Below are positions 37,167 through 48,962 of a stretch of 64,000 bases of DNA, in pieces; the first letter of the stretch is position 1; every line of letters begins with the position of its first letter. A program made the translations under genes and the position numbers. The stretch spans positions 620,001 to 684,000 of the forward strand of contig NZ_LN999833.1 of assembly GCF_900039485.1 (NCBI RefSeq), in the 5' to 3' direction. A model generated the notes under the pieces. That model did no database searches. It was not told the origin of the DNA and saw only the letters and a program-made list of their open reading frames with translations. This DNA is from Candidatus Doolittlea endobia (GTDB lineage Bacteria; Pseudomonadota; Gammaproteobacteria; Enterobacterales; Enterobacteriaceae).

Positions 37167-37522
37167 CATGAGCATTTATTTTATTACGTTTTTGTGAAGC
37201 GATTTTTATCGATGCTTATAAGATTATTTATACCTACTCTGTTGAACAATACTGGTTATATGATAACAACTGCACATTTAAACTCCGAAACGAAACAGGC
37301 TATTCCAATAAAGTACGGCAGTAATGTCGTTCTTTTCTTTTACTCACGACATGCTTGACTGGTTTTTACTTTGTCTGTTAAGAAAATGCTGGCGCCGTCG
37401 TTAACGTTGCCCAGATCGACAGTGAGTACGATATTCTCGGTTATTATTGGCTGACGTTCTTGCGTATTGATCCGAAGGCTATGTTGTTTACGATCCTTCA
37501 TTTGCACGTGAGGTGTTTTGTT
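37167..37522. other. Gap between fis and mnmG
   Basis: This is 356 bases. In E. coli oriC and mioC lie upstream of mnmG, but no DnaA box (TTATCCACA or close variants) or 13-mer array is visible here. No gene is recognised. The mnmG start has no strong Shine-Dalgarno (GAGGTGTTTTGTT precedes it). Confidence 0.5.
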
Positions 37523-45378: not shown

Positions 45379-46257
45379 TTATTTCATACTACTGGCTAGC
45401 GTGGTGACATTATGGCGAAACGCCGCTTCATAGGTGCCCGTTAATCCATTCGCTGAAGATAATGTTTCCGGATAAAGTTCGCCGCCGAGTTGGGCGCCAC
45501 TGGCTTTAGCAATCTGTTTCACTAATCTTGGATTAGTTTGGTTCTCAATAAAATAAGTGGTAATATGCTCTTTTTTGATCTGATCGATCAATCTTGCCAC
45601 ATCATTAGCACTAGCTTCGGCTTCTGTGGACAAACCGACCGGAGAAAGGAATTGCACGCCATATTCAGCGCCAAAATAGCCGAAGGCATCGTGACTAGTT
45701 AATACTTTACGTTTCGCCTGCGGAATGGAAATAAATTTTGCTTTAGCCCATGCGTCGAGCTTTTCCAATTTCTGAATATAAGTTTCACCGTGCTCACGGA
45801 AATAATCTACGTCCTGGGGATCAATTGCTATCAGTGCCTGCATGATGTTACGGGCATATAGAGCTCCGTTGTGCGCGCTATTCCAAGCGTGTGGATCAGT
45901 CAGTGTTTTACCGTTTACTTCTATTTTGCGAGGACTGACTCCTGTAGAGACGGTGACAATTTTACTCTGAGAGCCAGAGGCAATGATCAGACGATCAATC
46001 CACCCTTCCAGTCCCAACCCACTGATAAACACCACGTCCGATTTTGCTATCGACTGACTGTCTTTTGGCGAAGGCTCAAAGACATGAGGATCACCATTGT
46101 CTCCAACTAATTCGGTGACCTTGACATGCTCGCCGCCAACATGTCGGACGATATCCGCTAGTACGGAAAAGCTGGCTACTACGCTGACAGTTTTCGCCAG
46201 CGCGGAATGACTAGCCATAATCAAAGCTATCGCGCATAACAATGTAAAACGCTTCAT
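45379..46257 (-). CDS. Zinc/manganese ABC transporter substrate-binding protein
   Basis: This is a periplasmic cluster A-I (ZnuA/PsaA/AztC-like) metal-binding protein of 292 residues. It has a signal peptide, cleaved probably after SHSALA (residue 21). Likely ligands are His58 (GDPHVFEPSP), His123 (DPHAWNS) and His189 (TSHDAFGYFG); a histidine at the third position is typical of zinc-type rather than manganese-type proteins. The fourth position, usually aspartate, appears to be Glu264 (YPETLS). There is no His-rich loop as in E. coli ZnuA. It is the last gene of a permease-ATPase-binding protein operon, 12 bases after the permease, with a Zur-like box upstream of the whole unit. The metal specificity is inference. 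Confidence 0.88.
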   Translation of the reverse strand: MKRFTLLCAIALIMASHSALAKTVSVVASFSVLADIVRHVGGEHVKVTELVGDNGDPHVFEPSPKDSQSIAKSDVVFISGLGLEGWIDRLIIASGSQSKIVTVSTGVSPRKIEVNGKTLTDPHAWNSAHNGALYARNIMQALIAIDPQDVDYFREHGETYIQKLEKLDAWAKAKFISIPQAKRKVLTSHDAFGYFGAEYGVQFLSPVGLSTEAEASANDVARLIDQIKKEHITTYFIENQTNPRLVKQIAKASGAQLGGELYPETLSSANGLTGTYEAAFRHNVTTLASSMK

Positions 46258-46269
46258 GTCTTTCCCTTG

Positions 46270-47136
46270 CTAATAACGACGCCTACGCCGGCGCAGCAGT
46301 AAAGCGATGCCGCCGCTTGGCCCTAATAATATCGAGAAAAAAAACACCAAACTAGCTGATAACACGATAGTCGGACCAGAAGGCAATGAAGTGTAAAAAG
46401 ACCATAGCAACCCGCACCATGAACAGAACATACTGATGACCGTCGCCAGCACCAGCATTTTGGGTAAGCTGATCGTCCAGCAGCGCGCAGCCACAGATGG
46501 CAACATCATCAATCCGACCGACATTAGAGTGCCGAGCATTTGAAAACCGGCCACAAGGTTTAGCACCACTAGCGCCAAAAACAGTGTTTGGATAAGACGT
46601 GGGAAACCGCTGGAATTGACGCGTAAAAAATCGGCATCAAACGCTTCGATAATCAGTGCGCGATACATCAACGCCAAACTGACGAAGGTTATGCTGGCAA
46701 TAGCACCGATGAAATGAATGGCATCGGCATCGACTGCTAGGATTGATCCAAAAAGTAAATGTAGCAAATCAAGGCTTGATCCGTGTAGCGATACCAACGT
46801 TACTCCTAGTGCTAGTGAACCTAGGTAAAAACCCGCAAAACTAGCGTCTTCTTTTAACTGAGTTATCGAACTGGCCCAGCTAGATAATACCGCTACTATT
46901 ACACCGGCGATAAAACCACCAATCCCCATGGAAATTAGTGACATACCAGACAGCAGATAGCCGGTGGCGACACCAGGCAATATGGCATGTGATAACGCAT
47001 CCCCGACTAGACTCATACGGCGCAGCAATAAGAATCCTCCCAGCGGCGTCGTACTTAAGGACAAAGCGAAACAGGCCACTAGCGCCCGTCGCATAAAGCC
47101 ATAATGAAAAAAAGGCTCGAATAATACATGTAGCAT
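46270..47136 (-). CDS. Zinc/manganese ABC transporter permease
   Basis: This is an ABC-3 family inner-membrane permease of 288 residues with about eight hydrophobic segments. The family motifs LLRRMSLVGDALSHAILPGV and the later NLVAGFQMLGTLMSVGLMML (given as AGFQMLGTLMSVGLMMLP) are present. The C-terminus ends in an unusual run of arginines ([10 protein letters not shown]), probably cytoplasmic. It lies 58 bases downstream of the ATPase gene and 12 before the binding-protein gene, so it forms the channel of this metal importer. Confidence 0.9.
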   Translation of the reverse strand: MLHVLFEPFFHYGFMRRALVACFALSLSTTPLGGFLLLRRMSLVGDALSHAILPGVATGYLLSGMSLISMGIGGFIAGVIVAVLSSWASSITQLKEDASFAGFYLGSLALGVTLVSLHGSSLDLLHLLFGSILAVDADAIHFIGAIASITFVSLALMYRALIIEAFDADFLRVNSSGFPRLIQTLFLALVVLNLVAGFQMLGTLMSVGLMMLPSVAARCWTISLPKMLVLATVISMFCSWCGLLWSFYTSLPSGPTIVLSASLVFFFSILLGPSGGIALLLRRRRRRY

Positions 47137-47194: not shown

Positions 47195-47839
47195 CTAAAA
47201 TACAAGTTTCCACGCGGGTTGTGCTGATGACAACACTAATGTCTGTGGAAAATGCTTTTCCACCAGCCGATTGTCGTGCAGTACTACAATAATTGTACGT
47301 CCCTGACGGTGTAGTTGCCCAATGATAGTCATCAGCAAACTACATGTAGGTTTATCGATACCGCTAAACGGCTCATCAAGCAGAATCAATGGTGATCCCT
47401 GCACTAAAAGTCGGGCGAACAGCATACGCTGAAACTGCCCGCCGGAAAGCGTGCTGATGACGCGATGGGCTAATGTTTCTAGGCCGACACGTGTCAGCGC
47501 CTGCCAAATAGTAGCCTGACCGACTTGAGTTATTCGGTGCAATAGGCCACTGACTGGCCAACAACCCATTGCCACGACGTCAAATACGGTTAAAGGAAAT
47601 TGGCGATCCATTATCGCTTGCTGCGGTAAATAGCTAATACGCGGCCGGCCAGCTGAGCTAAAAGCTAGTGATCCTTGAACTGGTGGTAACAAGCCTGCTA
47701 AGGTTTTTAGCAAGGTAGATTTTCCGGCACCGTTGTCGCCTACGATGGCAGTCATACTGCCGTTGTCAAAACGACCGTCCAGCGGAACACTCATACCTCG
47801 CCCCTGATATCCCGTTACTAAAGCCTGCAAGGTTATCAT
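47195..47839 (-). CDS. Zinc/manganese ABC transporter ATPase
   Basis: This 214-residue ABC ATPase powers the metal importer. Walker A is GDNGAGKST, the Q-loop is in SYLPQQ, the signature is LSGGQFQRMLFARLL, Walker B is LILLDEPFSGID and the switch region is VVLHD. The start at 47839 is chosen because its ATG overlaps the stop of the upstream 46-codon frame as ATGA, giving translational coupling. The longer frame to 47872 would start inside that small gene. It is intact, the first ATPase gene of a three-gene importer and the only metal importer seen in the window. Confidence 0.92.
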   Translation of the reverse strand: MITLQALVTGYQGRGMSVPLDGRFDNGSMTAIVGDNGAGKSTLLKTLAGLLPPVQGSLAFSSAGRPRISYLPQQAIMDRQFPLTVFDVVAMGCWPVSGLLHRITQVGQATIWQALTRVGLETLAHRVISTLSGGQFQRMLFARLLVQGSPLILLDEPFSGIDKPTCSLLMTIIGQLHRQGRTIIVVLHDNRLVEKHFPQTLVLSSAQPAWKLVF

Positions 47840-47976
47840 GGTAGAATCACTGACCAGGCGATGGTACTCCATAGTACCAAGAGAATTAAAAACACTATTA
47901 GCGTCCGTATTAGACTAGAAGTAATAAACAACTTCCGCCCCATCGTCAAGCGCCGTAAAAAAGAATGTGAAGACAT
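47836..47976 (-). CDS. Small single-span membrane peptide, leader of the metal ABC operon
   Basis: This 46-codon frame starts MSSHSFLRRLTMGRK and continues with one hydrophobic span (LIRTLIVFLILLVLWSTIAW), ending SVILP. Its TGA overlaps the ATPase ATG by four bases (ATGA), the signature of a translationally coupled operon member. Its positively charged N-terminus predicts a cytoplasmic N-terminus. The ATG at 47976 lies 22 bases after a Zur-like box. The frame is open further upstream to 48075, which would run through the operator, so the internal start is preferred. I do not recognise the family. It could be an accessory subunit of the importer or merely an upstream regulatory frame. Confidence 0.55.
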   Translation of the reverse strand: MSSHSFLRRLTMGRKLFITSSLIRTLIVFLILLVLWSTIAWSVILP

Positions 47977-47997
47977 GATATGACCTAAAATAGTAAA

Positions 47998-48012
47998 TGT
48001 TATAAGATAACA
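47998..48012 (-). promoter_or_regulatory. Zur-like operator upstream of the metal ABC operon
   Basis: TGTTATAAGATAACA is a 15-base near-perfect palindrome that fits the enterobacterial Zur core TGTTATA-N-TATAACA with one mismatch. It is flanked by AAA and TATC, also close to the extended consensus GAAATG...CATTTC. It lies upstream of the small peptide gene and the ATPase-permease-binding protein genes, where a zinc-uptake operator is expected. Confidence 0.65.
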
Positions 48013-48962
48013 TATCACGTTTTCAGATTTACCGATAAACTTTCTGCCTAACTTAAGGATTTTGTTTCTACACATAACTTACTCACCTTTGAGGCCGACG
48101 GATTGTATATGCAGTAACGTCGTTTTACTCAAACTCGATAGTATATGTCGTAAAAATCACTGTCTAAAATCTTTATTTTTACGACTAGGAATTATCGTCA
48201 CAAGTAAAGACAAGTATCAGTTGTTCTTTTTTTTATCAAAATCAATAAAAAGCAACTTTACACCTTAAGTTTTACTATGCTGGTATAGTTTTGTATAAAT
48301 TTAATTGCAGTATTTAATATATTGTTCTCGAATATTTTATTGTGGCTTGATTATTGTTACTGAGTTTCATAATGTATTTTGAATACACTACTCCCTTCTG
48401 CTAGGTGCCTTTATCTATCATGCATGATTAGATAGCATCTATCCCATGTTTTGATTCTTTCTTTTGGAAAAAAGAAACGGTTCTACAGAAAGGCATTCGA
48501 TGTGGGTATATAACGTTATCCCGCTCTTTTTTAAGAATATTGTGTACTTACTTGTATGACTAGTTGAGTAAACAAGATTGTTATAAGCAGTCTATGCATC
48601 AGTCATATAAAAGGCTATATTAAAACGTTTATACATTTCTTTCTATTTGTCCCAGCATTCCACATCTAAAACCATTCTTTCCATATCGACGATAGTCCAA
48701 TGTGTATCTGTTGAGGCCTCAATAGAAAAAATGAAACTGAAACGGTCCCAAACATAGGCTACAGATCATATCATCAACTTTCTATTCTGCAATGAGAGCA
48801 AATGACATTAATTTTTGCCATATGATTTTAAAAAATAAGAAAAATCAGTTAATTTAAGTCATAGCTTATTCTGCCTAAAAAAGAGCAACTAATGCTTGTA
48901 TTTAATTCGTAAGGTAGAATAGCGGGTAAGCCTAATCTTTGATTGTTTTCCAAGGAGCTTCT
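48013..48962. other. AT-rich gap between the metal operon and yciC
   Basis: About 950 bases, strongly AT-rich, with no gene recognised on either strand. It contains repeat copy C (48877-48911). Promoters for both divergent flanking operons should be here. Confidence 0.45.
48877..48911 (+). repeat. Dispersed repeat family, copy C
   Basis: Agrees with copy B (34329-34363) at 28 of 35 positions. It lies about 50 bases upstream of the yciC start, so this copy could overlap the yciC promoter. Confidence 0.55.

Follow-up and report, generated by a model that had tools for sequence, protein, structure and literature searches.

A conserved single-span membrane protein encoded first in the zniCBA operon: a candidate fourth subunit of the zinc importer

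Introduction

Bacteria resist zinc starvation in hosts by high-affinity zinc import. In the stretch of 64,000 nucleotides of the symbiont Candidatus Doolittlea endobia analysed here (the window), the genes of a metal ABC importer are preceded by a short open frame, in a genome of 846,562 bases whose size and gene decay point to an insect endosymbiont of the Sodalis group. Is this frame a gene, and if so, does its product belong to the importer? The original prediction, made from the letters of the window, had taken it for a real small gene of 46 codons with one membrane span, placed behind a Zur-like box and coupled to the importer, perhaps as an accessory subunit.

Results

The ATPase, permease and binding-protein genes are all on the minus strand and run in one direction. 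The ATPase gene (47195–47839) encodes 214 aa, reads MITLQALVTGY at its N-terminus, and matches PF00005 (6e-26) and the AztA model NF040873 (200 bits, cut-off 220). The permease gene (46270–47136, 288 aa) matches PF00950 (8e-51), and its AF2 model resembles PsaC (7kyp) with a Z of 33. The best PDB match of the binding protein (45379–46257, 292 aa) is 8svc, ZniA of K. pneumoniae (E 1.6e-106), and all four published zinc ligands, H58, H123, H189 and E264, are kept at the same numbers. Because the binding protein matches K. pneumoniae ZniA and keeps its four ligands, the operon is, as judged from sequence, ZniCBA; zinc import itself is inferred. This identifies the metal ABC importer to which the frame had been said to be coupled. 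Window ZniA is the only ZnuA-family binding protein in the genome. Just one Fur-family gene is present, and it encodes Zur (NF008646, 287 bits; cut-off 167). For high-affinity zinc uptake the symbiont thus appears to depend on this one importer under Zur control.

The small frame, gene 1 of the operon, consists of 46 codons and a TGA on the minus strand, from 47976 to 47836, with the product MSSHSFLRRLTMGRKLFITSSLIRTLIVFLILLVLWSTIAWSVILP. Its stop (TGA, 47836–47838) overlaps the ATG of the ATPase gene (47837–47839) as ATGA, so the predicted overlap is confirmed by the coordinates. An AGGT Shine-Dalgarno-like stretch is present at the 46-codon start. A longer start at 48075, giving 79 aa, was rejected because the frame would then run through the Zur box. 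Upstream of the operon are yciC- and ispA/yciB-type genes.

The 15-mer TGTTATCTTATAACA at 47998–48012 is a near-perfect palindrome, and the 13-base Zur-type core GTTATCTTATAAC (47999–48011) ends 22 bases before the ATG of the small frame. The bare 13-mer was discarded as evidence since it is not rare in the window (GTTATN3ATAAC with at most one mismatch gave 3 matches, 3.3 being expected), and a 23-base weight matrix was used instead, built from 111 sites that precede this operon in relatives, with the window excluded. The 23-base site GATATGTTATCTTATAACATTTA (47994–48016, minus strand) scored 23.0 bits; the runner-up in the window scored 5.8 bits and the top score in 30 random 64-kb sequences was 17.8 bits. 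The Zur-like box is thus backed by its matrix score and by a true Zur gene in the genome. Elsewhere zniCBA is zinc- and Zur-regulated, being zinc-repressed and, in Rhizobium, Zur-dependent (PMC10797113, PMC12183173). Zur control of the window operon is inferred; there are no binding data. A perfect 13-base Zur-type core is also found at 37255–37267, about 200 bases before an mnmG/gidA-like frame; it scores 3.0 bits with the 23-base matrix and is therefore probably a chance match.

Selection on the small frame was estimated over 42 independent pairs by the Nei-Gojobori method. The dN/dS was 0.21, with 0.14 for ZniC, and the two shifted frames gave 0.90 and 2.13. A 59-row alignment covering Alpha-, Beta- and Gammaproteobacteria shows no variation at R24 and W41, and L35 and W36 occur in 90% of its rows or more. 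A point against the subunit reading is that in the window genome the small protein changes faster than ZniC, with a pN/pS of about 0.57–0.72 against 0.15–0.18 for the three nearest relatives.

The frame was found before the ATPase gene in nearly all of 161 loci with a ZniC/AztA-like ATPase, drawn mostly from Enterobacterales. A profile of 23 members matched 147 of 392 family genomes and 60 of 154 genera. A second profile, of 59 members, matched 64 of 398 phylum genomes at E ≤0.01, and in 59 of these matches (all of the top 30 and 29 of the remaining 34) a ZniC/AztA-like ATPase gene followed immediately in the same orientation. As the profile holds no ATPase sequence, this position is an independent test; the phylum set does include the window's own genome and some others from which profile members came. 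The same position, mostly with the same overlap, was seen in Sodalis-like genomes, Yersinia, Klebsiella, Enterobacter, E. coli 536 and beyond Enterobacterales: in the Alphaproteobacteria Thioclava, Bartonella, Azospirillum and Methylobacterium, and in the Betaproteobacteria Comamonas and Neisseria gonorrhoeae. The overlap with the ATPase start is exactly 4 bases in 144 of 194 distinct members; members that stop 20–50 bases short of that start, with no overlap, retain the conserved Arg, span and Trp. Of the 13 genomes below 1.5 Mb in which the operon was read, 12 have an intact frame, a fraction biased towards presence since the small frame itself served in part to find these loci. The remaining genome, that of a symbiont with 980 kb (L245, G015), keeps the ZniC gene without the small frame and without a Zur core upstream.

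Mapped onto a tree of 128 ATPases, absence of the frame is confined to a well-supported clade of 16, the AztABCD type, and two further single rows, one Bradyrhizobium and one symbiont. Genomes with both systems (e.g. G022, G067, G285) carry the frame at the Zni copy only. A fusion of the small protein to the ATPase was considered for Bradyrhizobium and rejected, the N-terminal extension of its ZniC-like protein (L283) being no membrane span.

These comparisons essentially establish, within what sequence data allow, that the small frame is a genuine coding gene, conserved and tied to the ZniC/ZniB/ZniA operon. The claim of a real small gene is borne out: the search for the same frame before homologous ATPase genes in Enterobacterales, proposed with the original prediction, gave the opposite of the refuting outcome, and the dN/dS estimate proposed with it points the same way.

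Annotation of the gene is uneven. It is entered as a hypothetical protein in a few records and is unannotated in others, e.g. E. coli 536 and Enterobacter hormaechei. The zni-type operon of E. coli 536 lies near hlyCA (unannotated small frame at 2165–2278 of locus L113); similar permease and binding-protein DNA was found in 23 of 5,426 complete E. coli genomes. In Neisseria gonorrhoeae (L288) the small frame, MTPSLLLSGLTFRLFLALIAVFLLWGVYLWAVSV, lies beside a ZniC-like ATPase gene and its stop overlaps the ATPase start region.

The small protein was modelled with AF2 from an alignment that excluded rows from plasmid records. The model is a single helix over residues 5–44, with pLDDT 93–96 at residues 21–40, in agreement with the one membrane span that had been predicted. 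At 46 aa and one helix the product meets the size and span test for small accessory membrane subunits. The 15 residues up to the Arg carry a net charge of +1.6, against about 0 after the Trp; because of this difference across the span, the N-terminus should be cytoplasmic. This orientation would put the invariant Arg where the span meets the cytoplasm, and an L-W-x(4)-W motif close to the periplasmic end. At least nine distinct members, from other proteobacterial families, have His-rich stretches (at least five His) before the Arg and the span, suggesting metal handling; such loci include L313, L315, L322, L323, L332, L341, L347 and L348.

Covariation between the small protein and ZniB was analysed in a pilot with 204–213 operons (74–101 effective sequences). 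The strongest coupling of the small protein joined I39 to ZniB G144; it ranked 2 of 96,141 long-range pairs and was the top pair between the two proteins under three settings. Size compensation is seen at these positions, with I paired with G 103 times and V paired with A 52 times. The second coupling joined T38 to ZniB V20, and enrichment was highest at ZniB helices 1 (13–38) and 5 (137–166). When volume covariation was corrected for the tree by independent contrasts, 39–144 ranked 7th of 4,602; the top pair of that analysis, W41–C22, was set aside as a probable alignment artefact of a nearly invariant column. In an analysis of co-changes per branch over 6,900 pairs, 38–20 ranked 6 and 39–144 ranked 75, and neither survived correction for multiple testing. 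Some couplings, e.g. 22–138, clash with the proposed geometry. If ZniB follows the BtuC fold, the orientation fits, since helices 1 and 5 both start at the periplasmic side and residues 37–40 of the small protein would be periplasmic. Direct contact between the small protein and ZniB is likely but is not shown; its support is weak, and there are no interaction or expression data.

Discussion

We consider it probable that the product of the first gene is a small fourth subunit with a single span and a cytoplasmic N-terminus, which sits on ZniB and supports the Zur-controlled ZniCBA importer. The role is proposed because of the operon position, the clade specificity and the weak coevolution with ZniB helices 1 and 5. 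The small protein would pack against these two helices and would support assembly, stability or coupling of the importer under zinc starvation, and its frame may be translationally coupled to the ATPase start, as inferred from the overlap in the sequence. The suggestion of an accessory subunit made in the original prediction therefore stands as the best supported reading, yet it is still an inference.

A tentative extension, which we regard as possible and no more, is that the permease's first transmembrane helix is a separate, detached chain, namely the small protein, so that ZniCBA would be a split ten-helix importer. In type II importers with ten helices (BtuC, HmuU, BhuU), the first helix has a cytoplasmic N-terminus. 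The ZniB model aligns with them over almost its whole length, starting from about residue 28 of BtuC (1l7v) and residue 23 of HmuU; ZniB therefore would lack their first N-in helix. The small protein has the predicted topology of that missing helix, and its strongest couplings fall at the periplasmic starts of ZniB helices 1 and 5, which correspond to BtuC helices 2 and 6. A published model of the related MntC likewise has nine rather than ten helices, the N-terminal one being extracellular (PMC8487065). If the extension is true, a detached helix would explain why these permeases have fewer helices than other type II importers.

It is unlikely, in our judgement, that the small protein senses or handles zinc instead of being a structural subunit, for example by taking the metal at the inner face of the permease or by shutting the pump when zinc is plentiful. 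Such a function would account for the His-rich stretches before the Arg in at least nine distinct members; against it, the window member and nearly all enterobacterial members have no such stretch, and the conserved part of the protein is the span and not a metal-binding tail.

Slightly less credit is given to a leader frame, the translation of which would open or couple translation of the ATPase while the peptide has no function. The exact 4-base overlap in 144 of 194 distinct members is the classical arrangement for translational coupling. A functionless peptide, however, would not be expected to show an amino-acid sequence under purifying selection (dN/dS 0.21) or an Arg and a Trp that are invariant across classes, and the members that end 20–50 bases before the ATPase gene keep Arg, span and Trp without any overlap. 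That a chance open frame lies beside a chance palindrome is refuted by the conservation, selection, position and Zur matrix score, although 46 codons make a short frame and matches to the bare 13-mer core are not unusual in the window.

The proposal of a fourth subunit on ZniB bears on published ZniCBA work, which deals with a three-protein system and seems to have overlooked a conserved fourth member, the product of the first gene. Work on ZniCBA without the small protein, be it reconstitution, structure determination or transport assay, may be incomplete. Carriers of the gene include Klebsiella, Yersinia, Neisseria gonorrhoeae, some E. coli and insect symbionts with highly reduced genomes; the invariant Arg and Trp are directly testable residues.

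The family had not been recognised in the original prediction, and no model in Pfam, NCBIfam or PHROGs was matched by more than one member of two family alignments. The window protein itself had no match in Pfam or NCBIfam, and the family none among PDB sequences. A literature search returned no paper naming a small protein in the zni operon. The Entero67K set of intergenic small frames of Enterobacteriaceae (PMC11188072), of which only a part was available, may contain the gene unnamed. The small-protein family attached to ZniCBA is apparently undescribed.

The closest known systems are ZniCBA of K. pneumoniae and R. leguminosarum, which have the same C-B-A gene order and the same binding-protein ligands as the window (PMC10797113, PMC12183173). 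In the portions available, both papers describe three genes, against four here. Term searching of the Klebsiella paper, as far as its text was accessible, returned no small protein, and the accessible passages of the Rhizobium paper mention none. Klebsiella records have the small gene upstream of the ATPase gene, as in the window. The Zur box reported 153 bp before Rhizobium zniC leaves room for one.

AztABCD of Paracoccus and relatives has the same subunit types and provides the nearest NCBIfam models for all three window proteins. Membership was rejected, the scores being AztA 200, AztB 246 and AztC 252 bits against cut-offs of 220, 280 and 350, and that clade being without the small gene. 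In the AztABCD clade some 60 bases separate the Zur box from aztA downstream of it, and aztD, the gene of a periplasmic zinc chaperone, is part of several operons. The clade (L267–L276, L282, L284, L286, L291, L146) is nested among systems that bear the small gene, which has been lost from it.

Among cluster A-I importers, PsaBC and MntBC (manganese) and ZnuBC (zinc) have a permease fold like that of ZniB; PsaC (7kyp) has the same fold as the ZniB AF2 model, at 2.8 Å over 274 residues. The homologous PsaBC and ZnuBC transporters have PDB entries. To our knowledge, no small membrane subunit has been described for PsaBC, MntBC or ZnuBC, and for the homologous PsaBC and ZnuBC this counts against the subunit reading. 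In size and build the small protein resembles AcrZ, KdpF and CydX, each below 50 aa with one membrane helix. KdpF and CydX are also co-encoded with their partner. From AcrZ, for which a structure with AcrB is available (PMC7267776), from KdpF and from CydX (PMC4325964), the protein of the zni operon differs in its proposed partner, in its pattern of invariant Arg and Trp, and in its predicted control by Zur.
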